DNA of 64,000 bases from Pollutibacter soli. GTDB lineage: Bacteria > Bacteroidota > Bacteroidia > Chitinophagales > Chitinophagaceae. Under the pieces are notes generated by a model that was not told the DNA's origin, did not search any database, and was given only the letters and a program-made list of their open reading frames with translations. Below, piece after piece: positions 5,418 to 41,882 of the stretch (position 1 is its first letter; each line of letters opens with the position of its first letter). The DNA lies in assembly GCA_029269725.1 (NCBI GenBank), contig JARJHS010000002.1, forward strand, positions 620,001-684,000. The letters run 5' to 3'. The position numbers were made by a program, and so were the translations under genes.

Positions 5418-6587
5418 ATGCAAAACACCATAGCTTCTTCGTCTGTAGCAACCGTTGAACGTGTTCCCCAGGCTCATACCGGTACATACTATAAGCAGCT
5501 GGATACATTGCGTTGTTTGGCAGTGGGTTTGGTAATCCTTGAACATTGGTTTGCATCTAGTATAAGTCATCTTTTTGACTTTGGATTTCTGGGCGTTTTA
5601 ATATTTTTCACATTAAGTGGATTTCTGATTACCGGGATACTTCTCAGAAACAAACAATCACTCGATACGGGCCAGGTTTCAAAACGTGAAATATTAAAAA
5701 CATTCTACGTCCGCAGAAGTTTAAGGATTTTCCCGATCTATTATTTTCTACTGGCTTTTCTTTTTATATTTTCGTTTGAGCATATTCGTGAGAAGATGGG
5801 TTGGTATGCACTGTATGCCTCAAACCTTCTTACCTATAAGCAGCAACACTGGGATGGAATGATTGGTCCACTGTGGTCACTGGCGGTCGAAGAACAGTTT
5901 TACTTAATTTGGCCGCTACTTATCCTGGTAATACCTGTTAAGAAACTTCCTGCTTTTTTTTATATATGCCTCGCTGCAGCCCCGTTGTTCAGGCTTTTAT
6001 CAATTGAAGCAGCATCAATGTTTTCTGCCGATCCGAAACCGGAACTTTCCATGCGTGTGTTGATGCCCAACTGTGTCGACTCCTTTGCGGCCGGTGGTCT
6101 TCTGGCTTATTTCATGAGGTATAAAGATGAGGCTCCCAGGTGGATTGAATTAATGAAGAAAAATGTGTCAGGAATAATTTTGCTGGCGGTATGTATCGTT
6201 TTGCTTTTATTTAAGAAATCCTATGCATTCTATCTGATATTCCCTACGATATTTTGTTGGCTGTCAGTGTATATGATTAAAGGATTAATCAACAATGTTA
6301 CTGGTTGGAAAGGAAAGCTATTTTCAAATCCTGCAACAATCTATCTCGGTAAAATCAGTTACGGAATCTATCTTTTCCACGGCCCATTTCCATTGATACT
6401 AAGTATTATTGATTTTATCATGCTCAAAATAGGATTAGGATTCACAATGTATAATTCGCTTGAAGGTCTCGATCCAATACTAAAAAAATCAATATGGGTG
6501 ATATACCTGGTGATTTTTGCGAGTCTTTCATATTTTATTATTGAAAAGCCCTTCAATAAATTAAAAGGGAAATTTAATTATAGCTGA
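5418..6587 (+). CDS. Acyltransferase family 3 membrane protein (first of four)
   Basis: Multi-spanning O-acyltransferase of the OafA/NodX type, which acylates sugars of surface glycans. Family signatures are present in order: LDTLRCLAVGLVILEHW with the conserved His, FFTLSGFLIT, YVRRSLRIFPIYY and GPLWSLAVEEQFYLIWP. About ten hydrophobic helices follow to residue 389. It lies four bases after the ABC ATPase gene and three before a glycosyltransferase, so it belongs to the operon. Acyl group and acceptor sugar cannot be read from the sequence. Confidence 0.9.
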   Translation: MQNTIASSSVATVERVPQAHTGTYYKQLDTLRCLAVGLVILEHWFASSISHLFDFGFLGVLIFFTLSGFLITGILLRNKQSLDTGQVSKREILKTFYVRRSLRIFPIYYFLLAFLFIFSFEHIREKMGWYALYASNLLTYKQQHWDGMIGPLWSLAVEEQFYLIWPLLILVIPVKKLPAFFYICLAAAPLFRLLSIEAASMFSADPKPELSMRVLMPNCVDSFAAGGLLAYFMRYKDEAPRWIELMKKNVSGIILLAVCIVLLLFKKSYAFYLIFPTIFCWLSVYMIKGLINNVTGWKGKLFSNPATIYLGKISYGIYLFHGPFPLILSIIDFIMLKIGLGFTMYNSLEGLDPILKKSIWVIYLVIFASLSYFIIEKPFNKLKGKFNYS

Positions 6588-6590
6588 TTC

Positions 6591-7607
6591 ATGCCCCGTG
6601 AGAATCCATTGGTTTCGGTTGTAATGCCCGTGTATAACGCAGGAGCTTTCCTGGTGCCAGCGATGAAAAGTATCCTTCAGCAAACCTTCAGAGATTTCGA
6701 ATTTATAGTCATCAATGATGGTTCTTCCGATAACTCATCTCAAATCGTACGGTCTTTTCAGGATGAAAGGATCAGGTTTTTCGAACAGGAGAATCGAGGT
6801 GTGGCTTCCACATTAAACCGCGCGATTGATCTGGCAAAAGGCAAATGGATATGGAGGCATGATGCGGATGATACATGCCTTCCGGATAAACTGGAACAGC
6901 AGGTAGCATTTCTTTCGCAGCATCAGGAGTTTGTAATGTGTTCAACACAAATCGCTTTTATGACAGAAAAAGGTTGTGTAGCAAAGTCGTACAAACAACC
7001 ATCAGACAATTTTTTTTTAGGTAACGAATATATTGACGTCCGGAGATCGCATTTCAGGCCATATAGTCCTATCACGCACGCTACCGTATTGATTGAAAAA
7101 AAAGTGTTAGAAGATCTTGGAGGGTACAGAACATTTTTCAAAACAGCGGAAGATGTCGATCTGTGGCTTCGCCTGATTCAGAAACACAAAGCGGCAGTGA
7201 TACATCGCTGTGATTATTTTGTGAGATTGAATAAAAGTTCAGCAACACAAAGACTGGGTAACAAAAACGAAATCTTCAGAAACCTGGCATTTCGTTTTTT
7301 TGAACAGAGGGCTGAGCGACAAACAGATGACCTGCAGCGGGGCGTTGAACCAGAAACTGATTCGCCTCCGTTGGAGGTAAAACAGGAAAAGAAAGCCGCT
7401 GGTAGAAATTATCAGTCGGATTTATTGTTATACTATCTTCCCCTTCATCTGAACGCACATGATTATCGGGCTTCTGCACGAATAGCAATGCTTGCACTAA
7501 GGGAAGGTTGGAGGGACATTAACACCTGGAAAACACTTGCTATCCTGGCGTTGGGTAAAAAAGCAACTTCAAAAATTGTTGCTGCAAAAAAAAGAATCGC
7601 CCATTGA
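6591..7607 (+). CDS. Family 2 glycosyltransferase
   Basis: GT-A fold sugar transferase for assembly of the polysaccharide repeat. It has the N-terminal VSVVMPVYN strand (residues 8-16), NDGSSD nucleotide-binding loop (42-47) and the metal-binding DADD motif (91-94). The later TAEDVDLW segment carries the likely catalytic acid. Residues from about 240 onward are a helical extension. The stop codon overlaps the TTG start of the next gene. Donor and acceptor unknown. Confidence 0.9.
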   Translation: MPRENPLVSVVMPVYNAGAFLVPAMKSILQQTFRDFEFIVINDGSSDNSSQIVRSFQDERIRFFEQENRGVASTLNRAIDLAKGKWIWRHDADDTCLPDKLEQQVAFLSQHQEFVMCSTQIAFMTEKGCVAKSYKQPSDNFFLGNEYIDVRRSHFRPYSPITHATVLIEKKVLEDLGGYRTFFKTAEDVDLWLRLIQKHKAAVIHRCDYFVRLNKSSATQRLGNKNEIFRNLAFRFFEQRAERQTDDLQRGVEPETDSPPLEVKQEKKAAGRNYQSDLLLYYLPLHLNAHDYRASARIAMLALREGWRDINTWKTLAILALGKKATSKIVAAKKRIAH

Positions 7608-12677: not shown

Positions 12678-13739
12678 GTGAATCAATATTATCGGAAGGT
12701 TGACGGACTAAGATTTATTGCTATTGCCTTTGTGCTGATTGAACATTTTGCTCAGTTTATTGGCTCTCGTTTTTCTGCTGGCTATTATGGTGTCGATTTA
12801 TTTTTTGTAATCAGCGGATATCTTATTACAAATATTCTTCTAAAATCGGACGAAAAGAAATTCGGAATAGCATATAAAAATTTTCTTGGTCGAAGGACTT
12901 TGAGAATTTTTCCCATTTACTACCTCACTATTCTTGTCCTTTTTCTATTGCAGTTGGAAGTAGTCAGAGAATATATAGGCTATCTTCTCACTTATACTTT
13001 TAACTATGCGTTGATTTATTTTGATTTGAGATTTACTCCTGTCAATCATTTCTGGTCGCTTTGCGTTGAAGAACAGTTTTATATTTTCTGGCCATTTGTA
13101 GTTCTTGGACTTCGGAAAAATCTTCAGGTCCTGTTATCTATTATCATCGTGATGATAGTAGTCTCCTATGCTCAGTTATCCTTTTCAATTATCGAGCCTT
13201 TAAATCCATACAATTACGTGGGTTTGTTAACCCGAATGGGATCGCTTGGATTTGGTGCCCTGGGCGCAATTCTATATAAGACTGAAAAAATTCCGACTGA
13301 GATTTTTAAGAATAAGTACGTAGAGTATGGGGTGTATGTCCTGCTAATCATTTGTTTGGTTACAACCTATCGTTTCAGATATATTTTTCTCGGCCTGTTT
13401 TCATTGTACCTGGTTTTGAAGGCTTCTCATTCTGAATTTAACGTCCGCTGGATTAATAATTTGCTGAAGAGTCAGTTCGCCGTCTATATAGGAACAATCT
13501 CATACGGGATCTATGTGTTCCATGTGCCGATAGCTTATTATTTTTCTAAATATATTTTTGACCCTTTCTGGCTTTCTTTAGATTTTAATGTCATCCCCGG
13601 GCTTAGTGTTGTAAGATGGCATTCATGGATAATAAAACTTCCGCTATTTTCCGCCCTGACCATCGGAGTAGCGTCACTTTCTTACAGGTTCATTGAAAAA
13701 CCAATTCTTTCTCTGAAAGATGTTTACTTTAAAAATTGA
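12678..13739 (+). CDS. Acyltransferase family 3 membrane protein (third of four)
   Basis: Membrane O-acyltransferase with VDGLRFIAIAFVLIEHF, FFVISGYLITNIL, GRRTLRIFPIYYL and NHFWSLCVEEQFYIFWP, ending in the typical YRFIEKPILSLK. GTG start two bases after the previous stop. It is very hydrophobic, about ten helices. Part of the polysaccharide operon. Acyl donor unknown, but see the E1/E2/ACP cassette at 25916-29923 as one possible local source. Confidence 0.9.
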   Translation: MNQYYRKVDGLRFIAIAFVLIEHFAQFIGSRFSAGYYGVDLFFVISGYLITNILLKSDEKKFGIAYKNFLGRRTLRIFPIYYLTILVLFLLQLEVVREYIGYLLTYTFNYALIYFDLRFTPVNHFWSLCVEEQFYIFWPFVVLGLRKNLQVLLSIIIVMIVVSYAQLSFSIIEPLNPYNYVGLLTRMGSLGFGALGAILYKTEKIPTEIFKNKYVEYGVYVLLIICLVTTYRFRYIFLGLFSLYLVLKASHSEFNVRWINNLLKSQFAVYIGTISYGIYVFHVPIAYYFSKYIFDPFWLSLDFNVIPGLSVVRWHSWIIKLPLFSALTIGVASLSYRFIEKPILSLKDVYFKN

Positions 13740-13760
13740 TGTCTGAAGAGGTATTGATGT

Positions 13761-14918
13761 ATGAGCTTTAAATTTCAAAATAAAACTGTTTTTATATTGT
13801 CTCCTGAAAAATGGGGAGTTATGCGGTTTTCAAAACATCATTATGCATTAGAGCTCGCAAGCCTGGGCAACAAAGTCTATTACATTAATCCTCCGGAAAT
13901 TTCCTGCAAGGGTGTTGAGATTAAAGGTGCTGAAGAAACAGAAAACCTGAAGATAGTCACCTACAAACCAGTCTATCGTGGTAAAAGATTTCTTCCTGCT
14001 TTTGTATTCAAACAATTATTGAAGGAGCAGGTGAAAATACTTTTGAAAGAAACGGGAGTTACGCCCGATGTTGTTTGGTGCTTTGACCCTTATCGCTTTG
14101 GTAACCTGAACTGGTTTAAAGCTAAAGTAAAAATATTTTTTCTCGCTGATTTGCTGGCCCTGGATTATCTTCCTGGTGAAGCAGAGACTGCTGATTTTTC
14201 TCTTGCACTTTCTGAATCGAGAATCAACCAGTTAAAGCGTGGTCACCGCCCGGTATTTTTTATCAACCACGGATTGAGTAATTACTATGCTGTCAGAGCT
14301 AAATCTCGTTTAGCGGAGTTAATGCGCAGTTCTGAAATCATTCCTGAGAAAATTACTGCAGGTTATATTGGCAATCTCCTGATGGAAGCTCCCGACAGAG
14401 CAACCATGAAAACTATAATTGAAAGGCATCCCGAAATAAATTTTATTTTTTGGGGACAGTACGAAAGACAGGGACAACTTGTTGCGTTTAATAATGACTC
14501 TGTATTTGAGTTTATTGATTTCCTGAAAAAGCAACCCAATGTTGTTCTCAAAGGTCCTGTGCACCCGGAAGTACTCAGTAGAGAAATCACCGGTGTGGAT
14601 CTGCTTTGGGTATGTTGGAAATTAAACGTGAGCAAGATGTGGGATGGATCAAATCCGCACAAGATACTCGAGTACCTGAGCACAGGCAAACCGCTGGTGA
14701 CTCATCATATGGATGTGTACAAAGACAGCGATTTGGTGGATATGATGCCGGGCGACGATAATACCGGCTTTCCCGATCTTTTTGATCGCGTTGTGGAGAG
14801 GGTCAGCAAAGGAGAGAAAACAGAATTGCAGAGAAAACGAATTGAATTTGCTTTAAAGAATACCTATCTCGAGCAGATTCACAGAGTAGAAAACATTATT
14901 AATAAAAAGGCAAACTGA
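13761..14918 (+). CDS. Glycosyltransferase, group 1 (GT-B) like
   Basis: Predicted GT-B glycosyltransferase. The N-terminus (KTVFILSPEKWGVMRFSKHHYA) has the shape of family 4 enzymes that begin by reading an acceptor. The C-terminal half has a GYIGNL strand and a WDGSNPHKILEYLSTGKPLV segment, the usual nucleotide-sugar contact loop with a Glu before a leucine-rich helix. Clear ATG start 21 bases after the previous stop. Specificity unknown. Confidence 0.82.
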   Translation: MSFKFQNKTVFILSPEKWGVMRFSKHHYALELASLGNKVYYINPPEISCKGVEIKGAEETENLKIVTYKPVYRGKRFLPAFVFKQLLKEQVKILLKETGVTPDVVWCFDPYRFGNLNWFKAKVKIFFLADLLALDYLPGEAETADFSLALSESRINQLKRGHRPVFFINHGLSNYYAVRAKSRLAELMRSSEIIPEKITAGYIGNLLMEAPDRATMKTIIERHPEINFIFWGQYERQGQLVAFNNDSVFEFIDFLKKQPNVVLKGPVHPEVLSREITGVDLLWVCWKLNVSKMWDGSNPHKILEYLSTGKPLVTHHMDVYKDSDLVDMMPGDDNTGFPDLFDRVVERVSKGEKTELQRKRIEFALKNTYLEQIHRVENIINKKAN

Positions 14919-23821: not shown

Positions 23822-24975
23822 GTACGAAAATGACTTCAAAAAAAAAGTTGCTGATAATTGTCGACTGGTTTTATCCGGGTTACAAAGCCGGAGGTCCGAT
23901 TCAATCAACATTGAATCTTGCTTTTGCTTTAAAAGACAAATACGAAATAAAAGTATTAACAACCGATACCGATCACGGCGAAACAACACCGTATCCGAAT
24001 GTTGAATCGGGAAAATGGATCCGCAATCTTGATCCGGAAATTCAGTGTTATTATATGCGTAAGTCCGGTTTAACTCTGGATGAGATCCGTAATCATATTA
24101 TTAAAGAGGATGCTGATTTTGTGTACCTGAATCACATGTTCTCTCCCAAGTTTGTAATCTACCCGATGTGGTTGAAATATTCAGGGAAATTAAAATCCAA
24201 GATGATGGTTGGTCCCCGCGGTGCATTATATAATAGTGCCCTCGCGGTGAAACCCTGGAAAAAATATCCGTTTCTGTGGCTACTGCAAACGCTTAAAATT
24301 CAGAAAAGAATCACTTTTCACGCGACAAATGACAGAGAAAAGAACGCAATTGAAAAGTTTTTTCCGGGTAGTAAAATAATTGTTGCTGACAATCTGCCAA
24401 AGTCAAATCAACCTGCATATATCGGGTTGGAAAAACTACCTGGTGAATTGAAATGCATTTTCATTTCGAGGATTGTTCCAATAAAAAATCTTTTGTACCT
24501 GCTAGAGGTGATGAAAGATCTTCAGGGAAATATTGAACTGACAATCGTTGGTCCGATGGAAGATGCAGGTTATTGGGAACTGTGCAGGGAAAAAATAAAA
24601 CAGTTTGGCCCGCATATAAAAGTGAATGTTCTTGGTCCGAAAAGTAATGACCTGCTTACCGGACTGATCCGCCAGCATCATTTATTTATTCTTCCTACTG
24701 AAGGAGAAAATTTTGGACATTCTATATTTGACGCTTTCCTTAGCGGAAGGCCGGTTCTGATAAGTGATCAGACTCCCTGGCATAAATTAACAGAGAAAAG
24801 AATCGGTTGGGATTTGCCACTGGCAGATAAATCAGCATTTTTGCGGAGCCTTGAGGAATCTGTGAGATGGAAACAGGAGGATTTCGATGAGCATGCAAAA
24901 TCTGCATGGCAATTTGGTTCCGCTTTTATAAAAGACCAAAAAAGAATCGAAGCATATCAAATGCTTTTTTCATGA
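23818..24975 (+). CDS. Glycosyltransferase family 4
   Basis: GT-B glycosyltransferase, 385 aa. LLIIVDWFYPGYKAGGPIQS is the typical opening, with the glycine pair near the acceptor site. KCIFISRIVPIKNLLYLL starts the donor domain and EGENFGHSIFDAFLSGRPVLIS is the donor loop with an Asp replacing the second conserved Glu. GTG start overlapping the previous stop (GTGA). It ends in an ATGA overlap with the acetyltransferase gene. This pair (GT4 followed by WcaF-like acetyltransferase) is a common arrangement. Confidence 0.9.
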   Translation: MSTKMTSKKKLLIIVDWFYPGYKAGGPIQSTLNLAFALKDKYEIKVLTTDTDHGETTPYPNVESGKWIRNLDPEIQCYYMRKSGLTLDEIRNHIIKEDADFVYLNHMFSPKFVIYPMWLKYSGKLKSKMMVGPRGALYNSALAVKPWKKYPFLWLLQTLKIQKRITFHATNDREKNAIEKFFPGSKIIVADNLPKSNQPAYIGLEKLPGELKCIFISRIVPIKNLLYLLEVMKDLQGNIELTIVGPMEDAGYWELCREKIKQFGPHIKVNVLGPKSNDLLTGLIRQHHLFILPTEGENFGHSIFDAFLSGRPVLISDQTPWHKLTEKRIGWDLPLADKSAFLRSLEESVRWKQEDFDEHAKSAWQFGSAFIKDQKRIEAYQMLFS

Positions 24976-25520
24976 AGACTGTAGATAATTCCACTTATAA
25001 AGTTACCATCGAAATCGGGGCCTCCCGGATTAAACAAATTCTCTGGTACCTGACGAATGTTATTTTTTTCAGGAATCCATTAAATATTATTTCTTCTTCA
25101 AAAGTGTTGCTGCTGAAGATTTTTGGCGCTGAACTGGGAGTTGGAGTAGTTGTGAAACCTGCGGTCAACATTAAGTTTCCATGGAAATTGAAAATTGGTA
25201 ACCATTCCTGGATCGGCGAAGGTGTATGGATTGATAATCTTTCTGAAGTTGTGATCGGTAATAACGTTACCTTATCGCAAGGCGCGCTTTTGCTTACCGG
25301 CAGTCATGATCATACCAAAACAAGTTTTGATTATCTGAGTTTTCCAATCGTCCTTGAAGATGGCGTATGGATAGGTTCAAAAGCGGTGGTATTTGGAAAT
25401 GTAACCTGCGGAACCCATAGCATTCTTGGAATAAACTCTGTAGCTGAATCCGATCTTAAACCATATACGATTTACAAAGGAAATCCTTCCGTACCAGTGA
25501 TCGAGCGTGTGATTGAGTAG
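24972..25520 (+). CDS. WcaF-like hexapeptide acetyltransferase
   Basis: Left-handed beta-helix O-acetyltransferase for sugars, 182 aa from ATG 24972 (ATGA overlap with the previous gene). A longer open frame from 24906 is a shadow of the upstream gene. Hexapeptide turns are visible in the order KIGNHSWIGEG, VVIGNNVTLSQGA, VWIGSKAVVFGNV and HSILGINSVAESDL. The catalytic His is probably in TGSHDHTK. It closes the long operon. The frame stays open for 75 codons beyond the TAG stop, see the gap entry. Confidence 0.88.
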   Translation: MKTVDNSTYKVTIEIGASRIKQILWYLTNVIFFRNPLNIISSSKVLLLKIFGAELGVGVVVKPAVNIKFPWKLKIGNHSWIGEGVWIDNLSEVVIGNNVTLSQGALLLTGSHDHTKTSFDYLSFPIVLEDGVWIGSKAVVFGNVTCGTHSILGINSVAESDLKPYTIYKGNPSVPVIERVIE

Positions 25521-25915: not shown

Positions 25916-27868
25916 ATGAATAATACGCTGAATTTTAATGATGTGAATCATAAATTGTTGAAGACTGCACTGAGGATTAGAACAGTCGAAGAGAAATTTC
26001 TGCAGCTTTTTTCAGAGGGCAAACTTAATGGCACCGTTCATACCTGCGTCGGACAGGAATTTTCAGCGATCGCATTCGCGGGGCAGCTGAAAAAGAGGGA
26101 TTTTATCTTTTCCAATCATAGATGCCATGGCCATTACATCGCTTTTACCGGTGATGTACGTGGACTGCTGGCGGAACTTCTTGGTAAAAAGTCAGGTACT
26201 TGCGGTGGCATTGGAAGCAGTCAGCACCTCTGTCATAATAATTTTTACTCGAATGGGATCCAGGGAGGTATTGTTCCGGTGGCTGCAGGATATGCGTTGG
26301 CGAATAAATTGAAAAAGGCCAATGCGGTTGGAGTTGTCTTTATCGGAGATGGCACACTTGGCGAAGGTGCATTGTACGAGACCATGAACATCATCTCGAA
26401 ATGGGAAATTCCGCTCCTCATCGTTTGTGAGAATAATTTTTATGCTCAATCGACTGCTCAGAAAACCAATCTCGCGGGAGATATCTTATCCCGACCTGAG
26501 GCCTTTGGTATCAAGACCTGGAAAGGCGATACCTGGAACCCGGACCAGTTGATGAAAACCGCTGCAGAAGCAATTGATTATGTCAGGGAAGGAGTGAAGC
26601 CCGGATTTTTCCTGGTGGAGACATATCGTTTGAATGCGCACTCCAAGGGCGATGATGACAGGGATACTGAAGAAGTAAAAGCATATACTGAACGCGATTA
26701 TATCAATCAGTTCAAACGCGATTCGCTTTCCTATTATAATAACTATCACGGTACCATAACCGAAGAAATCGATGGTTTAGTGACGGAGATCCTGGCGGAA
26801 GAAGAATTGCCGATACAGGATTATTTTGAAGTTCAGGATGAAGTAAAGAACGATCGCTGGCAACAAATCGAACCAATTGCGAAACGCCAGGTGGAGTTAT
26901 TGAATCAATTCTTCAAAGAGCAAATCGTTAACGATGATCGCATGGTTTTCCTGGGAGAGGATATACTTTCTCCGTATGGTGGTGCTTTCAAAGTTGCAAG
27001 AGATCTTTCTTTTCTGAAACCCGATCGTGTTTTTTCAACTCCTATTTCTGAAGCAGCAATTACCGGTATCGCAAATGGGCTTGCGCTGAATGGTTTGAAG
27101 CCAATTGCGGAGATCATGTTTGGTGATTTTATTACGCTTGCATTTGATCAGATTGTGAATCATGCAAGTAAGTTTCACCACATGTTCAATAAAAAGATCA
27201 AATGCCCCGTAGTGGTACGTACTCCGATGGGAGGTAACAGGGGATATGGTCCTACTCACTCACAAACACTCGATAAATTCCTGATCGGCATCGATAATGT
27301 AAAAACAGTTGCACTTAATACATTTATCGATCCGGGTATTGTATACAAGTCGATTTATCGTGAAGAGCATCCGGTAGTGGTAATTGAGAATAAGGTTGAC
27401 TACGGCAAGAAGATCCTGCATAATGCTTTAAAGAACTATCGGTACGAAAGAAGTGAATCAGATTTCCCTGTGGTAAGGATTAGTCCTGCGATATCTGAAC
27501 CTACATTGACCATTGTCGCTTATGGCGGCATGGCGGACATGGTAGCAGGAATACTGGAACAGATATTTATTGAAACTGATCACAAAGCGGAATTGATTGT
27601 TCCCACCCTTATTTCTCAGCTCCCCATTGATGTAATAAAAGAATCGGCGTCACGAACAGGCAGCCTGGTGGTAATTGAAGAAGGAAGCCCGGTCGGAGGT
27701 ATTGGAAGTGAACTGATCGCGAGTATTATGGAATCGTCTGATCATTATATAAAAGCAAAAAGAATTGCGAGCCTGCCTGTGCCGATTCCATCGGTGAAAT
27801 CATTGGAGAATATTGTTCTCCCCGATAAAAACAGGATTATCAGGGAAATCGCAGAAAATTTCAATTAA
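25916..27868 (+). CDS. 2-oxoacid dehydrogenase E1, alpha and beta fused
   Basis: Thiamine-diphosphate enzyme that decarboxylates a 2-oxoacid and passes the acyl group to a lipoyl domain. Both E1 subunits are on one 650-aa chain. The alpha half (about 1-310) has the ThDP motif GDG (144-146) through NN (173-174) and RLNAHSKGDDDRD. The beta half (about 330-650) has VFLGEDI, ISEAAITGIANGLA, the GGNRGYGPTHSQ loop and KPIAEIMFGDF. Fused E1 is also known in branched-chain and acetoin-type complexes, so the substrate is open. The E2 gene starts four bases later. No E3 (lipoamide dehydrogenase) is encoded nearby, so it would have to be shared. Its location between polysaccharide genes suggests a biosynthetic rather than catabolic job. 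That is inference. Confidence 0.93.
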   Translation: MNNTLNFNDVNHKLLKTALRIRTVEEKFLQLFSEGKLNGTVHTCVGQEFSAIAFAGQLKKRDFIFSNHRCHGHYIAFTGDVRGLLAELLGKKSGTCGGIGSSQHLCHNNFYSNGIQGGIVPVAAGYALANKLKKANAVGVVFIGDGTLGEGALYETMNIISKWEIPLLIVCENNFYAQSTAQKTNLAGDILSRPEAFGIKTWKGDTWNPDQLMKTAAEAIDYVREGVKPGFFLVETYRLNAHSKGDDDRDTEEVKAYTERDYINQFKRDSLSYYNNYHGTITEEIDGLVTEILAEEELPIQDYFEVQDEVKNDRWQQIEPIAKRQVELLNQFFKEQIVNDDRMVFLGEDILSPYGGAFKVARDLSFLKPDRVFSTPISEAAITGIANGLALNGLKPIAEIMFGDFITLAFDQIVNHASKFHHMFNKKIKCPVVVRTPMGGNRGYGPTHSQTLDKFLIGIDNVKTVALNTFIDPGIVYKSIYREEHPVVVIENKVDYGKKILHNALKNYRYERSESDFPVVRISPAISEPTLTIVAYGGMADMVAGILEQIFIETDHKAELIVPTLISQLPIDVIKESASRTGSLVVIEEGSPVGGIGSELIASIMESSDHYIKAKRIASLPVPIPSVKSLENIVLPDKNRIIREIAENFN

Positions 27869-27872
27869 GAGT

Positions 27873-29186
27873 ATGGGTCTGTTGCAGGAAATAAAAGTTC
27901 CGCTGATCGCTGTTAATGATACAAGTCTGACCGTTGTTGAAATCAGTCATGCGAATGGCGATCATGTACAGAAAGGGACGACGGTGATGGTTTTCGAAAC
28001 CTCCAAAACAACATACAATGTGGAAGCAGAGGTCGATGGCTTCATTAACTACCTGTGCGAAGTGGGATCGGATTATGAGGTAAATGATATTGTTGCCAGA
28101 ATATTCAGCGGTAAAGAAGAAGCTGATACTGCGACTATTCCTCCAGCCGAATTGCAACCACCTGCAGTTCATCATCAGAATGGCCAGACAATCGCTGCTG
28201 CATGGACAGGAATAACCATTTTTTCTAACGGAGCTAAAAAGCTCATGGAGGAAAGTAAGTTAAATACAGAAGCTTTTGCTGGCCGGGACTTTGTCAATCT
28301 TACAGACGTCGAATCATTACTTGGTATCAGGAAAACACCTGCAGCACCAAAAACGGCCGCGGCAAAACAGGTTTCTGCGAAAGAGCAGGAATTACCCGTG
28401 CCGGCAAATTCAACAAAAGTAAAACTGACAGGTTCCAAGAAAAGAGAAATAGAATATCTGGGGAAAGTTCAATCAACAGGATTAACGAGTACCATCAATA
28501 CGCATGTTGAAACAGATGGAATATTCATCCATATCAACAATGCGCTGGCTGTACTAAAGAACTCTTTACTGCCGGTTATTGTTTATGAAACTTCGAGATT
28601 GCTGAAAATCTATCCTTTGCTCAATGGATATTTTTCCGGTGACAGCATCATATTATACAATGATGTAAACATCGGCTTCGCCATTGATATTGACAAAGGA
28701 CTCAAAGTTCTGAATGTCAGGAACGCCGACACGAAACAATTAAGCATAATCGAAAATGAGATCGTTGATTTATCTACTAAATACCTGGATGATAAACTGG
28801 CTGTTGAAGAACTCACTGAAATAAGTTTTACGATTACAGATCTTTCAGGCGAGGATGTGAGTTTTTTCAGACCGCTGGTAAATATGCAGAATAGTGCCAT
28901 ACTAGGTGTGTCTTCAATAGATCAGAAACTTCAGCGACTCTATCTTAGTATGAGTTTTGATCATCGTGTGACGGAAGGAAAACTCGTGGCTCAATTTTTA
29001 AAGGATCTGAAAAACAGGTTGGAATCATACCGGGGAAATGGCGGTAAAACACTAACGTCTACCATCACCTGTTTCAAATGTGCAAAAAGGTTATCAGAAG
29101 ACCTGAGTGACACGGGTTTTGCCAAAGTTCTTACTCCATCGGGTGAAGAAGCCTACATTTGTCAGAGTTGTTTTAAAGGATTTTAA
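27873..29186 (+). CDS. E2-like lipoyl acyltransferase with C-terminal zinc ribbon
   Basis: Dihydrolipoyl acyltransferase-like protein, 437 aa from ATG 27873. Domains in order: lipoyl domain (1-80) with lipoyl Lys45 in FETSKTTYNV, a degenerate subunit-binding segment (about 117-150), an Ala/Pro linker, and the E2 catalytic domain (about 185-385) with NMQNSAILGVSSID and the active-site box DHRVTEG. His364 is kept but the usual Asp of HxxxDG is Glu368. After the normal E2 end there is an added CxxC...CxxC module (Cys400, 403, 430, 433), a probable zinc ribbon not expected in E2 enzymes. The ACP/AcpS gene starts two bases downstream. I infer that the acyl group is delivered to that carrier. Confidence 0.9.
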   Translation: MGLLQEIKVPLIAVNDTSLTVVEISHANGDHVQKGTTVMVFETSKTTYNVEAEVDGFINYLCEVGSDYEVNDIVARIFSGKEEADTATIPPAELQPPAVHHQNGQTIAAAWTGITIFSNGAKKLMEESKLNTEAFAGRDFVNLTDVESLLGIRKTPAAPKTAAAKQVSAKEQELPVPANSTKVKLTGSKKREIEYLGKVQSTGLTSTINTHVETDGIFIHINNALAVLKNSLLPVIVYETSRLLKIYPLLNGYFSGDSIILYNDVNIGFAIDIDKGLKVLNVRNADTKQLSIIENEIVDLSTKYLDDKLAVEELTEISFTITDLSGEDVSFFRPLVNMQNSAILGVSSIDQKLQRLYLSMSFDHRVTEGKLVAQFLKDLKNRLESYRGNGGKTLTSTITCFKCAKRLSEDLSDTGFAKVLTPSGEEAYICQSCFKGF

Positions 29187-29188
29187 TT

Positions 29189-29923
29189 ATGGCACAAAAG
29201 CTGAAAGAACTTGTTTCAGGGTTTATAAAAATTCCGGCTGATCAGATTGATAGTGCAACTCCTATTGACAGATCGGTGGTAAAAAATTCTATTTTACTGC
29301 ATCGGATGTATGCCAGGTTGAAGGAAGAAAATATTATTGTTAACGATTATTGGGAAGTAAAAACCTTTGGTGATCTGCTGTCTAAATCAGGAAACAGTGG
29401 CATTGGCATCAGTAAAAATAATTCTGTAAATGCAGTTCACCCTGTTTCCGGAGATAAAGCTGAAGGAATTGGAATTGATATTGAAGAGATATCAGCATTA
29501 CCTGTAGTTTCTGATTTCAGAACTAGTCCATTTTACGAGATGAATTTTTCGCCGGGTGAAATTTCTTACTGCATCCTTCAACCCAATCCGTACAGTTCAT
29601 TCGCTGGAATTTTTGCAGCCAAGGAAGCAATAATCAAAGTGAATAATTCTTTTAAAAGCCTTCCTTTTTCTTCAATTGCTATTCATCACCTTGAATCAGG
29701 TAAGCCTGTTTTCAATGATTTACATATTTCTATTTCACATACTGATAATTATGCCGTTGCGGTGGCACAGCCGGTTACAAAAGCTGAAACTCCAAATGCA
29801 GCTCCGTCAATTGTTCAATCTCCCGCTCCAGCCCAGGTGCAGAGAAACAACGCTGGTAGTATCCTGGCATTTATTGCAATCATTCTTTCACTGATCGCTA
29901 TCTGGGCTGTATTCTCCAGGTAG
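29189..29923 (+). CDS. ACP-like / AcpS-type phosphopantetheinyl transferase / membrane anchor fusion
   Basis: Three parts on one 244-aa chain. Residues 1-66 align by eye with acyl carrier protein: KNSILLHRMYARLKEE matches the ACP helix that starts at DSL, and Ser34 would be the phosphopantetheine site with DSL changed to NSI. Residues 92-193 are a complete holo-ACP synthase: GIGIDIEEI with Asp97, FSPGE, FAGIFAAKEAIIK with Glu146, SGKPVF and ISISHTDNYAVAVA. A Pro/Ala-rich linker (about 194-219) leads to a single C-terminal membrane helix (223-242). The natural reading is a self-loading acyl carrier tethered to the membrane. Families are clear for AcpS, moderate for ACP. The combined function is inferred. 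Confidence 0.85.
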   Translation: MAQKLKELVSGFIKIPADQIDSATPIDRSVVKNSILLHRMYARLKEENIIVNDYWEVKTFGDLLSKSGNSGIGISKNNSVNAVHPVSGDKAEGIGIDIEEISALPVVSDFRTSPFYEMNFSPGEISYCILQPNPYSSFAGIFAAKEAIIKVNNSFKSLPFSSIAIHHLESGKPVFNDLHISISHTDNYAVAVAQPVTKAETPNAAPSIVQSPAPAQVQRNNAGSILAFIAIILSLIAIWAVFSR

Positions 29924-30012
29924 TTTTATTTTATAGACAGTTTTACAAGATGGCATAATTCTGGTTTTGAGAGAACTTTAAACTTTCTGTAGATTTTTTG
30001 TTCAAACATTAT

Positions 30013-36273: not shown

Positions 36274-37158
36274 ATGAACGCCTTCACTATAAAGGACCTT
36301 GAAAATCTCACAGGTATAAAAGCTCACACCATCAGGATCTGGGAACAGCGATATCATTTCCTGAAACCCGAAAGGACTGATACCAATATCCGGTACTATA
36401 ACAATGAAGAGCTAAAAAAGATCCTCAATATATCGCTGCTGAATAAGTTTGGTTATAAGATTTCTCATATTGATAAGATGGATGATGAAGAAATCAATAA
36501 CAAAATTCTTCAGTTAAGCCAGCTGCAGGCCTTGCAGGAAAGAATTATACATGACCTGATTCAATCAATGATTAGTCTTGATCTCGACCTTTTCGAAGAA
36601 ACGCTGAATAAACATATCGAAGTAAAAGGGATTGAGAAAACAATACACCAGATCATTTTCCCATTTATGGAACGGATCGGTGTGTTATGGCTTGCCGGAC
36701 ATATAAATCCTGCACAGGAACATCTGGTTTCCAATATCGTAAGGCAGAAAATACTTGTTGGTACAGAAAGCCTTTCACCAGTAATTCATCAGCCTAAAAC
36801 AGCACTGTTATTTTTACCGGAAGGAGAGTTCCATGAACTGGGGTTGCTGTACATGCAATATTTTTTAAAAAATCGTGGGTTCAGGGTTATTTACCTCGGT
36901 GCTAATATTCCTGCGGTCGACATTGAGTATGTTGTAAAAATGAAGACCCCTGACTTCCTGTATACGCACATTACAGCCGCATCAAATGGATTCAGCTTTG
37001 ACAGGTTTATCACGCAGGCGGTGAAAAAATTCGGAGAAATCCCAATGATTATTTCAGGCCGGCTGGCTTCGACCTATGAAAAAAGATTGCCGGATAAAAT
37101 CACTTTTAAAAAATCGTTGTCAGAAGTGACCGACCATATTTCACAATTGTTGAAATAA
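36274..37158 (+). CDS. MerR-family regulator with B12-binding domain (CarH/LitR-like)
   Basis: Transcription factor of 294 aa. The N-terminal MerR helix-turn-helix (FTIKDLENLTGIKAHTIRIWEQRY, read in parts, about 4-27) is followed by a helical bundle and a cobalamin-binding Rossmann domain. The light-sensor signature W-x9-EH is present (Trp139, Glu149, His150). The cobalamin motif E-x-H-x-x-G is present at 185-190, with His187 the expected lower ligand. The residue after Trp139 is Leu, where Thermus CarH has the His that captures cobalt after light. So B12-dependent repression is likely, and the light step is less certain. In its family it represses carotenoid genes. crtI and crtB lie 2.3 kb downstream. 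Confidence 0.9.
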   Translation: MNAFTIKDLENLTGIKAHTIRIWEQRYHFLKPERTDTNIRYYNNEELKKILNISLLNKFGYKISHIDKMDDEEINNKILQLSQLQALQERIIHDLIQSMISLDLDLFEETLNKHIEVKGIEKTIHQIIFPFMERIGVLWLAGHINPAQEHLVSNIVRQKILVGTESLSPVIHQPKTALLFLPEGEFHELGLLYMQYFLKNRGFRVIYLGANIPAVDIEYVVKMKTPDFLYTHITAASNGFSFDRFITQAVKKFGEIPMIISGRLASTYEKRLPDKITFKKSLSEVTDHISQLLK

Positions 37159-37175
37159 ACTACCAGTCGGAAAAT

Positions 37176-38015
37176 CTATTTTAACACCAGAAGATAATTG
37201 GAAGTAATGAAATTCTCCAGCCTGGGGTGATATTTGTCAACTCTTACAATTCCATCTTTAAGTACTTTGTTAAAATGATAATCTTTCGACAACAATTCCC
37301 AGAAATCAAACAGAAACACCCGTGAAGAAATATTTGCTGTACCGAATTCAATCTGCATATTTTTTACTTTGCGGGACTTTAATACTTCTGTCGCTCCTTT
37401 GAGTATATTAAATTCAGAACCTTCCACATCCATCTTCAAAAGATCAATCGTATCAATCTTGTTTTCCTGAACGTATTGATCAAGCGTAATAATCTGTACG
37501 GTTTCTGAAGCCGTCTCTTTAAAATCCCTTACAGCAATTTTCAGATTGATCAATGAACCAAGATCAGAACCCTGCTGATCTGAATAAAGGGTCATTGTAC
37601 CCGGTTTATCAGAAAGCCCCAGGGCGTTTACTTTGACACTATAATTTCGAACGTTATTTTCAGTGATCACCTTATTGATGTAGCTGTGATTTGCCGAAGA
37701 CGGTTCGAAAAGATGCAATTGCAAACCCGGCACCTGGTATTGATTTGCAAACTGAAGTGACAGTCTTGTATAGTCGCCTTTGTTCGCTCCGATATCAAAA
37801 ATTACCTGCTGCCTACTTTTATTGGCTTCGATAATGTTTTTAAGAACAAGATTTTCTCCATTGTGCTCCACATGTACCCCCTGTTGGTGTCCGATGCCGG
37901 GTAAACTGATATTGTAAGCATAATTCCATGCGCGATAGTAGTCAACTGTACCGGCGGATTTTCTAAAAATTTTATGCAGTAATCTGAAAATGTTCAGCAG
38001 TAGCGTACCCATCAT
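37176..38015 (-). CDS. FkbM family methyltransferase
   Basis: SAM-dependent methyltransferase, 279 aa. VIFDIGANKGDYTRL is motif I, LHLFEPSSANHSYI follows and DLLKMDVEGSEFNILKGA is the FkbM signature. It is the second gene of a two-gene minus-strand unit, directly after the acetyltransferase at 38016-38666 (stop and start adjoin). Both point against the surrounding plus-strand carotenoid genes, which suggests a later insertion of glycan-modifying genes here. Confidence 0.9.
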   Translation of the reverse strand: MMGTLLLNIFRLLHKIFRKSAGTVDYYRAWNYAYNISLPGIGHQQGVHVEHNGENLVLKNIIEANKSRQQVIFDIGANKGDYTRLSLQFANQYQVPGLQLHLFEPSSANHSYINKVITENNVRNYSVKVNALGLSDKPGTMTLYSDQQGSDLGSLINLKIAVRDFKETASETVQIITLDQYVQENKIDTIDLLKMDVEGSEFNILKGATEVLKSRKVKNMQIEFGTANISSRVFLFDFWELLSKDYHFNKVLKDGIVRVDKYHPRLENFITSNYLLVLK

Positions 38016-38666
38016 CTATTTCTTTAATCGTTTCTTCCTGTAACTGTCGAAATCTTTTTCGGCTATATATCCACGGTATTTGTTGGTGTGTTCGTAGTTA
38101 ACGCATTTTGCCGGGTCAAGTTCTTTTATTTTTCGTGCAGGGATGCCGGCAAGAATACAGTAACCCTCAGGAAAGGATTTGGTAACTACCGCGCCTGCGG
38201 CGATTATGGTATGATCACCCACACTCACGCCCGGCATAATCTTGCTTCCTGCTCCCATCCAGCAATAATCACCCATATGAATAGGCTCAATCACCCTTTC
38301 GCGGTAATCGTAATTTGAATGATTAGCTGTAACCATTACTATATTCTTCGCGAAAATACAGTAGTTGCCGATGTATATTCCACCAATACCGGTGATATAG
38401 GCACCACCGTTGTACCCAGGGTATGAATCCACCCCGACAATGATGTGCTCAGGGTCGTGAACAGTACTGGTCCAGTGAACCGGCCAGTATGCGAGCTTGT
38501 TGCCGCCAATATTCAGGACCTTCTGTACGAACCAGAATCCAAAATTCACTTTGACGATATAGTCCCTGGTATTAAATAAAAACTGAAACCGGGGGTTCCA
38601 CTTGGTGAAGAGGTAAACAGGTAGAAAAAAAGGTTTTCTTAAAAAATAGCCCAGCTTCTTCAACAT
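38016..38666 (-). CDS. Hexapeptide-repeat O-acetyltransferase
   Basis: Left-handed beta-helix acyltransferase, 216 aa. Hexapeptide turns GIGGIYIGNYCIFAKNIVM, GDYCWMGAGSKIMPGVSVGDHTIIAAGAVVTKSF (read in parts) and the closing GIPARKIKEL are typical of sugar O-acetyltransferases. Catalytic His is probably in VTANHSNYD. First gene of the minus-strand pair with the FkbM methyltransferase. Its start lies 316 bases from the sigma-factor gene on the other strand. Acceptor unknown. Confidence 0.88.
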   Translation of the reverse strand: MLKKLGYFLRKPFFLPVYLFTKWNPRFQFLFNTRDYIVKVNFGFWFVQKVLNIGGNKLAYWPVHWTSTVHDPEHIIVGVDSYPGYNGGAYITGIGGIYIGNYCIFAKNIVMVTANHSNYDYRERVIEPIHMGDYCWMGAGSKIMPGVSVGDHTIIAAGAVVTKSFPEGYCILAGIPARKIKELDPAKCVNYEHTNKYRGYIAEKDFDSYRKKRLKK

Positions 38667-38982
38667 AGAATTGAACTGATTTCAAATGCGTATAAGTGAA
38701 AGTCCCGCCAATAACGCCTTTTGAAATGATCTTGTTATCACTTGCTTTTATAAAGTTGCAAATATTCGAAATTCACGGCGGTATGGAGCAGAGTTTTCAG
38801 TATTCTTTTACCAAAAGACACTAAAATTTTCACAGGTCTGGTATTTGCAAGGAAAAGAGCACAGAAGGTCCGGCCTTTACCCTGGGTTTATTTTGAAAAA
38901 TAATTCTCAAAAAGACAAAGAATTTTGGCCGGAAAACAGATATTGTTTAAATTACACTGACGAATCATTAAACAGAATTGAT
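38667..38982 (+). other. Divergent gap between acetyltransferase (-) and sigma factor (+)
   Basis: About 316 bases without a convincing gene. An open frame continues upstream of the sigma-factor ATG to 38845, but its sequence is not family-like. The gap must hold promoters for both directions. No exact TAnnTTTG is seen on either strand, only near matches such as TTATTTTG near 38890. No clear CarH operator palindrome was identified. Confidence 0.5.
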
Positions 38983-39483
38983 ATGGCTACCCTGGAGTTC
39001 AACCATATGCTGATTAAAAATGCGGATTTTTTAAAGCCATTTGCGATTACCCTGACCAAGGACCAGGAAACTGCGAAAGATCTTATGCAGGAAACATTAT
39101 ACCGGGCACTGGCAAACAAGGAAAAGTACAGTGTAGGAACCAATGTGCGGGCCTGGTTATATACAATCATGCGGAATATCTTCATCAACAATTACCGCAG
39201 AAAGGCTAAACAGAATACCATTTTTGATAGTACTCCGAACGAATTTTTAATTAATTACCAGCAGGCGGCGATTCAGAATGAGGCAGAAACCAACCTCCGG
39301 ATTAAGGAGATTTATTCAGCTATATACGAGTTGCCCCAGATTTTCAAGCAGCCTTTTATGCTTTATTTTGAAGGTTATAAGTACAATGAAATTGCGAAAG
39401 TGCTGCACGAACCATTGGGAACTATTAAAAGCCGTATCCATTTTGCACGGCGGTTGTTGAAAACGCAGATCAGTAAATTTTAA
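38983..39483 (+). CDS. ECF-type RNA polymerase sigma factor of the carotenoid cluster
   Basis: Sigma-70 family, ECF subgroup, 166 aa from ATG 38983 (MATLEFNH), which is the conserved start. Region 2 is seen as FAITLTKDQETAKDLMQETLYRAL and VRAWLYTIMRNIFINNYRRK. Region 4 is seen as LPQIFKQPFMLYFEGYKYNEIAKVL with EPLGTIKSRIHFARRLL. No anti-sigma gene is adjacent. The place usually taken by one is filled by the MerR gene, which may control it. The gene precedes crtI by ten bases. It probably drives crtI/crtB transcription, an inference from position. Confidence 0.92.
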   Translation: MATLEFNHMLIKNADFLKPFAITLTKDQETAKDLMQETLYRALANKEKYSVGTNVRAWLYTIMRNIFINNYRRKAKQNTIFDSTPNEFLINYQQAAIQNEAETNLRIKEIYSAIYELPQIFKQPFMLYFEGYKYNEIAKVLHEPLGTIKSRIHFARRLLKTQISKF

Positions 39484-39493
39484 TTATAGTTAA

Positions 39494-40969
39494 TTGCCCA
39501 GAAAAGTTGTCGTAATCGGCAGCGGTTTCGCCGGACTTTCAGCTGCTGCCTTTATGGCAAAAGCCGGCTGGCAGGTTCAGGTTCTAGAAAAACACGACCA
39601 GGCCGGGGGCAGGGCAAGAAGATTATCTGCCGAAGGATTTCATTTTGATATGGGTCCCAGCTGGTACTGGATGCCCGATGTTTTTGAAAGATTTTTTAAT
39701 CAATTCGGCAAAAAGGTTTCTGATCAGTACGAATTGAAAAGGCTTGATCCATCTTACAGAATTTATTTTGATGATGGTCCTGTTGATATTCCCGCAAACC
39801 CGGAAAAATTTAAATCGTATTTAGAATCGATAGAAAAAGGTGCTGCTGCGCAACTGGATAAATTTCTGAACGAAGCGGCTTATAAGTATCAGGTGGGCAT
39901 GCAGGAATTGGTGTTTCGGCCGGGCTTATCAATAATGGAACTACTCGACTGGAAGATTATCAGGAACATTTTCAGAATAGATATTTTTTCTTCGATAACC
40001 AAACATATCGAAAGTCATTTCCAACATCCTAAGATAAAACAAATCCTTTCGTTCCCGGTTTTGTTCCTGGGTTCTTTGCCTGAACATACTCCCGCTCTTT
40101 ACAGTCTGATGAATTACGCAGATCTTACACTGGGTACCTGGTATCCGATGGGAGGAATGTATAGAATCGTTGAAGCAATGAAAGCGGTCGCGGAGGAGCA
40201 GGGAGCTCAATTTGTTTTCAACACAGAAGCCAGGAAAATAAATATTGAAAATGGATCGGTAAAATCAGTAATCGCGTCTGATGGTAAAGAATTCTTTGCA
40301 GACGTTGTTATTGGTGGGGCAGATTATCATTTTATCGAAACGCAATTATTGCCAGAAAAAAGCCGTAGTTATAGTCGACAATACTGGGAAAGCAGGAAGA
40401 TGGCCCCTTCATGCCTTCTGTACTATATAGGATTAAACAGGAAAGTTCCGGGTCTGCAGCATCATTCCCTTTTTTTTGATGCAGATTTTACTATACATGC
40501 ACGGGACATTTATGAAAATCCATCGTGGCCGACACATCCGTTATTCTATGTAAGTAATGTCACAGCAACAGATCCGGAACAAGCGCCGGAAGGGTTTGAT
40601 AATATTTTTATCCTGATTCCTGTGGCGGCCGGTTTAGATGGAGATGATATCACTTTGCGCGAAAAGTATTTCGATATAGTTTCTGAAAGATTTAAACATC
40701 ACACCGGCTTTGATTTGAAAAATCACATCGTACTAAAGAAAACTTTTGGTCCTTCTGATTTCGTAAATGAATATCATGCTTATAAAGGAAACGCATATGG
40801 TCTTGCCAATACGTTAATGCAAACGGCAAACCTGAAGCCATCCTGTAGAAGTAAGAAAGTGAAAAATCTTTTTTATACCGGGCAGTTAACCGTACCAGGG
40901 CCGGGCGTGCCACCGGCATTGATCAGTGGAGAGATTGTAGCAAAAGAAGTAATCAGGTGTTTCGGTTAA
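39494..40969 (+). CDS. crtI: Phytoene desaturase
   Basis: FAD-dependent desaturase that converts phytoene to lycopene or a less desaturated product (491 aa). The FAD loop VVVIGSGFAGLSAAAFMAKAG (read in parts, residues 5-25) is followed by EKHDQAGGRARRL and FDMGPSWYWMPDVFE. The C-terminal FAD signature NLFYTGQLTVPGPGVPPALISGE is complete. TTG start ten bases after the sigma gene. Works with crtB downstream at the membrane. The cyclase and hydroxylase genes needed for zeaxanthin-type pigments are not in this window. Confidence 0.96.
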   Translation: MPRKVVVIGSGFAGLSAAAFMAKAGWQVQVLEKHDQAGGRARRLSAEGFHFDMGPSWYWMPDVFERFFNQFGKKVSDQYELKRLDPSYRIYFDDGPVDIPANPEKFKSYLESIEKGAAAQLDKFLNEAAYKYQVGMQELVFRPGLSIMELLDWKIIRNIFRIDIFSSITKHIESHFQHPKIKQILSFPVLFLGSLPEHTPALYSLMNYADLTLGTWYPMGGMYRIVEAMKAVAEEQGAQFVFNTEARKINIENGSVKSVIASDGKEFFADVVIGGADYHFIETQLLPEKSRSYSRQYWESRKMAPSCLLYYIGLNRKVPGLQHHSLFFDADFTIHARDIYENPSWPTHPLFYVSNVTATDPEQAPEGFDNIFILIPVAAGLDGDDITLREKYFDIVSERFKHHTGFDLKNHIVLKKTFGPSDFVNEYHAYKGNAYGLANTLMQTANLKPSCRSKKVKNLFYTGQLTVPGPGVPPALISGEIVAKEVIRCFG

Positions 40970-41042
40970 TTGAAAATGATAGCAACATTTCAGATCAGAA
41001 TATTTAAGAATTATAATTAGCCATCTTTAAAAAAATTACTGC

Positions 41043-41882
41043 ATGTCATTCCGGCTATTTGCTGAAACCTGTGAGCAATGCAGCAGGATTACTACGAAAC
41101 GTTACAGCACTTCTTTTTCGGGAGCGATATTACTGCTGCATAAAGACATCAGGCAGCATGTGTATAACATCTATGGTTTTGTGCGATTTGCAGATGAGAT
41201 AGTGGACACATTCCATGATCACAATAAAGCTGATTTACTCAGCAATTTTAAAACTGATACATTTAAAGCCATCGATGCGCATGTAAGTCTGAACCCGATT
41301 CTTCAGAGTTTTCAGAATACTGTACATGCTTTTAATATCTCCAATGATTTAATTGAGGCTTTCTTTAAAAGCATGGAATGGGATCTGGAGAAAAAAGTTT
41401 ACGACGAGGCAGGGTTTCGCGAATATATTTTTGGCAGCGCTGAAGTAGTGGGATTAATGTGCCTGCATATTTTTTGTGGGGGAAAAACATGTTTGTATGA
41501 AAAACTGAAGCCTCATGCGCAATCGCTCGGAGCAGCTTTTCAGAAAGTTAATTTTCTCCGGGATATCAAATCCGACCAGGAGTACTTGAGCCGGCTATAT
41601 TTTCCGGGAATCAATTTCAATACTTTTTCGGCGCATGATAAACAGCGGATTGAAAATGAGATCGCCGCAGACTTCAGACATGCATATGAAGGAATTATGC
41701 AACTTCCAGCCAATTCGAGATTTGGCGTATACCTGGCTTATAAATACTATCTGAGCCTGTTCAGAAAAATATGCAACTCAAAAGCATCTTCCGTGTTGCA
41801 GAAAAGAATCAGAATTCCTAATTATGCAAAGGCCTGGGTAGCAACCAAGGTGTTAATCAGAACACAACTGAATATTTTGTAA
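41043..41882 (+). CDS. crtB: Phytoene synthase
   Basis: Head-to-head condensation of two geranylgeranyl diphosphates to phytoene (279 aa). The first Asp-rich motif is FADEIVD (Asp51, Asp55) and the second is FLRDIKSDQEY (Asp174, Asp178). YSTSFSGAILLL near residue 21 is typical of the squalene/phytoene synthase family. It is 73 bases after crtI and converges with dusB. Together with crtI it forms the enzyme part of the carotenoid module. Confidence 0.95.
   Translation: MSFRLFAETCEQCSRITTKRYSTSFSGAILLLHKDIRQHVYNIYGFVRFADEIVDTFHDHNKADLLSNFKTDTFKAIDAHVSLNPILQSFQNTVHAFNISNDLIEAFFKSMEWDLEKKVYDEAGFREYIFGSAEVVGLMCLHIFCGGKTCLYEKLKPHAQSLGAAFQKVNFLRDIKSDQEYLSRLYFPGINFNTFSAHDKQRIENEIAADFRHAYEGIMQLPANSRFGVYLAYKYYLSLFRKICNSKASSVLQKRIRIPNYAKAWVATKVLIRTQLNIL

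Follow-up and report, generated by a model that had tools for sequence, protein, structure and literature searches.

The 64,000-nucleotide stretch of Pollutibacter soli DNA analysed here (hereafter the window) carries, on the plus strand between positions 25916 and 29923, a cassette of three genes separated by gaps of four (E1-E2) and two bases (E2-third gene). The first (25916–27868, 650 amino acids (aa)) encodes a fused alpha-beta E1 of the thiamine diphosphate (ThDP)-dependent 2-oxoacid dehydrogenase type, the second (27873–29186, 437 aa, read from an ATG that follows the mechanically called TTG start) a lipoyl E2, and the third (29189–29923, 244 aa) a protein predicted to join an acyl carrier protein (ACP) to an AcpS domain and a C-terminal membrane helix. 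Coordinates and Pfam matches agree on this arrangement with a preliminary description made from the same DNA, which had also placed glycan genes on both sides of the cassette and four acyltransferase-3 genes in its locus. Both of these were recovered: the surroundings comprise ABC export genes with a Wzt_C domain, glycosyltransferases, epimerases, FkbM methyltransferases and CpsB/CapC, and four genes of the window match Acyl_transf_3.

Three proteins with distinct assignments

In the E1, Pfam recognised E1_dh (2e-42), Transket_pyr (1.5e-24) and Transketolase_C (3.4e-14) within a single chain. The residues of the ThDP and beta-subunit motifs, whose roles we assume from the family, were invariant among five aligned E1s, and the best matches among solved structures were the E1 beta chains of 2-oxoacid and pyruvate dehydrogenases. 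By family criteria, this protein is a predicted ThDP-dependent 2-oxoacid dehydrogenase E1.

The E2, assigned from Pfam, a homologue alignment and a survey of its C-terminal tail, matched Biotin_lipoyl (7.5e-9) and 2-oxoacid_dh (3.3e-39). Its lipoyl domain (about 27888–28103) presents K45 within ETSK and its CAT-fold catalytic domain (about 28407–29030) keeps the His within DHRVTEG; we therefore read it as a putatively lipoylatable protein with a CAT-fold domain and catalytic His. In place of the usual Asp of HxxxD the window E2 has Glu, and this Asp is also replaced in many of the E2s encoded beside an ACP. An E3_binding domain was not matched by Pfam at E values up to 1. The extra element noted on this E2 by the preliminary description, a CxxC...CxxC tail (CFKC...CQSC, about 29064–29183; hereafter the ribbon), is indeed present at the C-terminus and recurs across phyla, and as a zinc ribbon it found no match in Pfam or NCBIfam.

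The third protein was recognised by Pfam as ACPS (PF01648, 3.4e-11), and its first 90 residues had no match in Pfam or NCBIfam. An AlphaFold model built from 39 aligned homologues (mean pLDDT 88) contained helices at residues 2–13, 34–46 and 60–71, an AcpS-like part and a helix at 222–243, and the first 74 residues modelled alone gave a mean pLDDT of 81. The alignment behind these analyses has 39 rows, without L067 and L089, which are cut by contig ends, and with genome G128 standing for locus L075, which lies on the same contig. Searching with the ACP-only model in Foldseek, we found that all 50 listed of 303 matches were carrier proteins or carrier-containing entries by title (TMq 0.57–0.76, E 0.02–0.21), among them 5ejd, which we take to be T3CT. 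A profile of 36 carrier domains (alignment A4 holds 36 of the 39 rows, without L119, L129 and L132) was compared with the PDB and returned 16 chains at E ≤ 10, 14 of which are carriers (best E 0.0072); in both PDB alignments shown, the Ser of the profile aligns with the phosphopantetheine serine. That residue, Ser34 (29288–29290), stands at the start of helix II in the AlphaFold models and does not vary in any of the 39 aligned homologues. Equally invariant (39/39) are G95, D97, E146 and K150 of the AcpS domain (residues about 92–195), D97 and E146 presumably being Mg/CoA residues. The AcpS half found its best Foldseek matches in the PPT domain of fungal fatty acid synthase (FAS), with AcpS structures also among the matches. 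Residues 1–71 are thus modelled as an ACP fold with a Ser at the start of helix II, and the domain that follows is, by fold and residues, predicted to be an AcpS-type phosphopantetheinyl transferase (PPTase), which upholds the earlier view of an acyl carrier joined to its own AcpS. The proposed membrane anchoring stood only in part: the helix at residues 222–243 is predicted in the window protein, but hydropathy placed a C-terminal membrane helix in 23 of 40 third proteins (not seen in 16; L067 is cut), and a membrane tether is therefore not general.

A promoter-like element of its own, which the preliminary description had assigned to the cassette, did not hold up. The Bacteroidota -33/-7 pair, searched as the consensus we presume for it, had no match in the window, and no sigma-70-type site was found on the plus strand between 25521 and 25915; the sole -7-like sequence upstream of E1 is TACCTTTG at 25803. 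At the end of the third gene, a consensus scan marked a plus-strand terminator-like stem of 10 pairs with a T-rich tail (29897–29924), which is no evidence of function since the region holds two such sites against 4.1 expected in shuffles.

Recurrence across phyla and the partners of the E1

To place the cassette among its relatives, we scanned GTDB genomes with the five aligned E1s and kept as our locus set the best 80 of 564 confirmed relatives, for which reason the proportions within the set are not prevalence figures. E1, a CAT-type E2 and an ACP/AcpS protein followed each other in this order in 39 of the 80 loci, including L089, which is cut by a contig end. The titles of these 39 name 12 phyla, as well as Saganbacteria and one unnamed bacterium, though single taxon labels may be wrong because many are metagenome-assembled genomes (MAGs). 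In a further 17 loci (assigned by profile, Pfam or reading: L072, L076, L096, L097, L107, L110, L112, L113, L114, L118, L120, L123, L124, L127, L128, L131 and L133) the catalytic domain of E2 is replaced, and the gene beside E1 encodes a lipoyl domain fused to a left-handed beta-helix (LbH, hexapeptide) acyltransferase. In eleven loci a CAT-type E2 is present but the third gene is not (L073, L077, L080, L086, L087, L088, L091, L093, L106, L108 and L109). Of the remaining 13, seven end within 0.9 kb of E1 (L064, L081, L090, L104, L115, L122 and L125), L069 continues with a transposase-like gene (by eye), L084 resembles an ordinary pyruvate dehydrogenase (PDH), and four are Planctomycetota loci. 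Altogether, a lipoyl-domain partner adjoins E1 in 67 of the 80. In L084 such a partner lies upstream, and in L090, L115 and L125 the contig breaks off after the beginning of one. A survey of 395 genomes of the phylum (E1 subfamily threshold E ≤ 1e-85) found the subfamily in seven, the window's own included. Both arrangements occur among the five of the six others that were examined, as E1-E2-ACP/AcpS in G128 and G424 and as E1 followed by a lipoyl-LbH fusion in G261, G071 and G366 (the sixth, G286, is at 33% identity). The recurrence of gene order, ribbon and carrier in other phyla speaks against chance; the cassette is a real, conserved and widespread module with a patchy distribution.

The two kinds of partner appear to have been exchanged repeatedly. 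A quick tree of the E1s (84 rows, with SH-aLRT as the sole support measure; L125 is labelled LbH though only its lipoyl part is visible) required 14 changes for the ACP label and seven for the LbH label. None of 500 shuffles was as low, and the starred branches force at least 10 and at least four changes, respectively.

The ribbon follows the third gene closely. Beside that gene it was present in 37 of 37 scored E2s and in L089, that is, in 38 of 39; in L117, the 39th, the profile match reaches position 436 of 437. The CAT E2s that lack it (L073, L077, L087, L088, L106, L108 and L109) had the third gene in none of seven loci. Ribbon E2s without the third gene occur in L086, where the contig ends soon after, and in L091, L080 and L093. 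The tail, which tracks the ACP/AcpS protein, is a candidate docking element. In L091, the place of the third gene is taken by a membrane protein that combines hexapeptide repeats with an ordinary carrier domain (AWDSL; Pfam PP-binding 0.0036–0.0038, below the cut-off), and in L087 (11941–19113, Ruminiclostridium sufflavum) a single 2390-aa chain of the order lipoyl-E2-KS-DH-KR-3xACP directly follows the fused E1, a possible 2-oxoacid-loaded polyketide line. Both carrier arrangements independently point to transfer of acyl groups from this type of E2 to carriers. After the L087 megasynthase comes a 796-aa protein in which carrier-like stretches can be made out by eye.

As the preliminary description had noted, no E3 belongs to the window cassette, but this does not extend to all related sets. 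The module of L083 (a Lachnospiraceae MAG) has its own E3: a gene of this type at 6080–6694, with GGCCLNTGCIPTK, overlaps the third gene's end and is truncated by the contig boundary. In G424 the gene immediately after the third one encodes an FAD oxidoreductase. No further E3-type gene in this position came up in a simple motif search, so E3 is an occasional rather than a core member. The host genome holds one dihydrolipoamide dehydrogenase above the cut-off and, since that gene sits on another contig, the window cassette presumably shares its E3 with the housekeeping complex.

That such cassettes track glycan loci, a point that the preliminary description had proposed to check, was borne out by two scans of neighbouring open reading frames (ORFs). 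The first covered 81 of 142 ORFs, picked by hand with minus-strand ORFs mostly excluded, and the control 113, namely the plus-strand ones from 160 with a few long or edge ORFs dropped and one added from another listing. In both, glycosyltransferases, epimerases and hexapeptide acyltransferases (Hexapep) were the commonest families. The gene directly upstream of E1 matched Hexapep in 19 of 38 ACP-type loci, compared with eight of the 113 other neighbours (Fisher 4e-8, ignoring the relatedness of the loci), and at least four of those eight are, by reading, LbH genes one place further upstream (L054, L060, L068 and L070). The 39 loci give 38 upstream genes since L061 has no readable one; they were picked by a plus-strand rule, the alternative rule having given antisense ORFs for the coupled genes of L071 and L089. 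The upstream LbH gene overlaps E1 by 4 to 14 bases in L055, L056, L062, L063, L071, L074, L089, L095 and L098. By eye, these genes fall into several subfamilies, which we presume to be WcaF-like, CysE-like, long LbH and LpxD-like (L103).

In the window, a putative WcaF-like LbH acyltransferase is encoded on the plus strand at 24906–25520, and we propose it as the terminal enzyme and fourth member of the cassette. Its homologues lie directly upstream of E1 in L055, L056, L057, L058 (the genome of Niastella populi), L059, L062, L063 and L071, and close homologues of the same cluster match Hexapep at 1.9e-7 and 8.3e-8. Among the fusions, one LbH type, that of G261, is related to the perosamine N-acetyltransferase PerB (matched at 1.7e-26), to PglD and to VioB, and the motif His, whose role we take from PglD-type enzymes, was present in seven of seven PglD-type fusions looked at (six by pattern, L131 by reading).

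Two other neighbourhoods deserve mention. In L075 (8512–14901) E1 is immediately preceded by a B12-type radical SAM-like gene, and next after the third gene comes a phosphatidylserine-decarboxylase-like one, both named by eye. In the window, adjoining the capsule locus, the region 36274–41882 encodes a MerR regulator with B12-binding domains near genes of the flavin amine-oxidase and phytoene-synthase families, an arrangement suggestive of a light-responsive carotenoid switch.

A proposed acylation pathway and its alternatives

Taken together, we consider it probable, at roughly 0.6, that the cassette is a dedicated acylation module of the 2-oxoacid dehydrogenase type, in which an acyl group would pass from a 2-oxoacid via E1, lipoyl-E2 and ACP to an LbH enzyme and finally a glycan. 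As a hypothesis, the chemistry is well supported as far as the ACP, the acceptor less so. Judging from its family, E1 would decarboxylate the 2-oxoacid and reductively acylate the lipoyl arm of E2. From E2 the acyl group would then go to the ACP, onto the phosphopantetheine thiol carried by Ser34, rather than to CoA, a choice of acceptor to which the genetic linkage with ACP or LbH enzymes points. The ACP would be converted to its holo form in cis by the fused AcpS domain, as the two families suggest, and would sit on the membrane via its C-terminal helix in the window's lineage. From there, linkage suggests that acyl-ACP could serve an LbH acyltransferase, here most likely that at 24906–25520, which might acylate an amino or hydroxyl group of a glycan precursor, with dihydrolipoyl-E2 being reoxidised by an E3, here probably the housekeeping one. 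In the sister systems the ACP step would be skipped, the LbH enzyme fused to the lipoyl domain taking the acyl group directly. The best solved matches of the E1 and the ordinary-PDH context of L084 suggest pyruvate as the substrate, and pyruvate is our simplest guess for the 2-oxoacid; a dedicated E1 makes most sense, though, with an acyl group that CoA does not supply.

Several observations weigh against this proposal. With respect to the carrier, hhalign of the carrier profile with four ACPs of the organism's own genome was weak (probability 14, E 0.0019), and the identity of the ACP therefore rests on the fold and PDB-profile results. With respect to the E2, L080 and L093 have the ribbon, yet the third gene is not within reach, and L087 and L108 (by eye, in another frame just after E2) have ordinary carrier domains without a ribbon, which is therefore no general mark of a carrier. 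With respect to the E1, L084 (6350–11935, Ignavibacteriaceae) combines a two-lipoyl E2 with an E3_binding domain, an E3 and then a fused E1 of the same subfamily in an ordinary-PDH-like set, so that this type of E1 alone is no proof of a glycan function, and L069, L094, L101, L102 and L116 show no lipoyl partner in the locus. The terminal enzyme is similarly affected: the window's LbH gene matches Hexapep at 0.0012, below the curated cut-off, lies 395 bases from E1 and is not coupled to it, and in 15 of 39 loci, including L061, no LbH gene was read either next to the cassette or at the following position upstream. Moreover, if the acyl group were acetyl, the need for anything beyond acetyl-CoA would not be evident. 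Finally, the co-occurrence of the three genes in relatives, on which the preliminary description had made its reading depend, was found in the 39 loci and their 12 named phyla but not close to home, where none of 59 near relatives carries the third gene (sought at E ≤ 1e-8), so that kinship gave no comparison.

Among the alternatives, the preliminary description had favoured the membrane acyltransferase-3 proteins of the locus as acceptors, to which the membrane helix would bring the donor. The four Acyl_transf_3 genes of the window fit this idea, as do L054 and L070, whose E1s are 74% identical to that of the window and in which an Acyl_transf_3 gene and the start of E1 share 8 bases. However, these two close relatives are the only cases among 38 upstream genes, both have an LbH gene just before, and the recurrent upstream neighbour is LbH; a remnant of such an Acyl_transf_3 gene was sought in the window gap before E1 and was not found. 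Together with the 16 of 40 third proteins in which no membrane helix was seen (L067 being cut), this makes acyltransferase-3 acceptors unlikely, though less so than the explanations that follow.

We regard it as rather improbable that acyl-ACP is the starter or building block of a lipid or polyketide-like product instead of a donor for glycan acylation. The L087 fusion of lipoyl-E2 to a KS-DH-KR-ACP megasynthase fits this explanation, but it is the one such fusion noticed in the 80 loci, and no ketosynthase (KS) is among the 25 commonest neighbour families (81 and 113 ORFs; 101 and 147 families). A shade less probable still is a role of the E1 in making a branched-chain sugar, to which it would join a two-carbon unit by C-C ligation, as proposed for AviB1/AviB2, Pau11/Pau12 and EvdU5/EvdS3. 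PDH-like E1 pairs have been proposed to add such two-carbon branches in the sugar pathways of avilamycin, paulomycin and everninomicin, according to the portions of PMC4425429 and PMC10338323 consulted, and four loci of one Planctomycetota clade with no lipoyl partner found (L094, L101, L102 and L116) could encode carboligases of this kind. In those portions the known cases are described as PDH alpha/beta homologues, with no mention of a lipoyl or E2 partner (neither "lipoyl" nor "dihydrolipo" occurs in the PMC4425429 main text), whereas the E1s studied here have one in 67 of 80 loci, and in the window the lipoyl E2 adjoins E1. That the cassette is an accessory PDH or BCKDH making acyl-CoA, with the ACP incidental, we consider equally improbable, since, for all that E1 and E2 resemble ordinary PDH-type components, that L084 looks like an ordinary complex and that the L083 set includes an E3-type gene, the HxxxD Asp is replaced in many ACP-type E2s and the linkage to the ACP/AcpS protein and LbH acyltransferases is tight across phyla.

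Relation to known systems and significance

The proposed 2-oxoacid-to-glycan module shares with the PDH and other 2-oxoacid dehydrogenase complexes a ThDP E1, a lipoyl E2 with CAT-fold domain and catalytic His and, in L083, an E3-type gene. It differs from them in the fused E1, in the ribbon on E2 and in the dedicated ACP or LbH acyltransferase that stands in the place of CoA, and in the window also in having no E3 and an E2 without a Pfam E3_binding match. In Dlt D-alanylation, with its carrier DltC and the MBOAT protein DltB, a carrier-protein thioester is likewise the donor for modification of a surface polymer. In contrast to Dlt, the carrier here would be loaded by E1/E2 and not by an adenylating enzyme (the scan of other window genes, which covered part of them, gave no AMP-binding family), and the proposed consumer is an LbH protein; an MBOAT O-acyltransferase gene directly after E2 was noticed in L106 only (13046–14566), where that E2 lacks the ribbon. 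LpxA and LpxD are ACP-dependent LbH acyltransferases and, like PglD, PerB and VioB, share with the present enzymes an LbH fold acting on nucleotide sugars; here, unlike in these systems, the LbH is fused to a lipoyl domain or lies beside a self-loading ACP. Carrier and PPTase occur in one chain in enediyne-type self-loading carriers and, with the PPT domain, in fungal FAS, and the third protein differs from both in being a free-standing 244-aa protein with an optional membrane helix.

The analogy drawn by the preliminary description with tetronate biosynthesis, where E2-like proteins were thought to hand acyl groups to ACP, applies in part. E2-like proteins do occur together with an ACP in these clusters, but in the part of PMC5819245 consulted a glyceryl-S-ACP synthase does the loading of the ACP, while Agg4 and QmnD3, which are E2-like, serve acylation-elimination on the tetronate. 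The tetronate and branched-sugar clusters thus resemble our loci in having E2-like proteins with ACP or PDH-like E1 pairs and, as far as the consulted parts of these sources go, differ in not having E1, lipoyl E2 and ACP together. A literature search, with most subscription journals outside its reach, turned up no account of glycan loci in which E1 stands with lipoyl E2 and ACP/AcpS or in which lipoyl-LbH fusions occur. The individual parts all belong to known types; what seems to be new is their assembly and the swapping of acceptors.

More broadly, we see an even chance that these loci represent a widespread, hitherto undescribed class of 2-oxoacid dehydrogenase modules with a non-CoA acceptor, in which one fused-E1 subfamily would drive glycan acylation via a lipoyl arm, either through direct LbH fusion or through a ribbon E2 and a self-priming ACP, the acceptors having been exchanged several times across phyla. 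The acylation of capsule, O-antigen and exopolysaccharide is normally traced to acyl-CoA. A PDH-like route via lipoyl and ACP would be a second acyl source and would tie the chemistry of the cell surface directly to pools of 2-oxoacids; acyl groups whose origin is unknown might be accounted for in this way. Thanks to the lipoyl-LbH fusions, a direct test of the idea needs two purified proteins and, if it is true and the 2-oxoacid is an unusual one, these modules would write onto surface glycans acyl groups that no CoA pool supplies.

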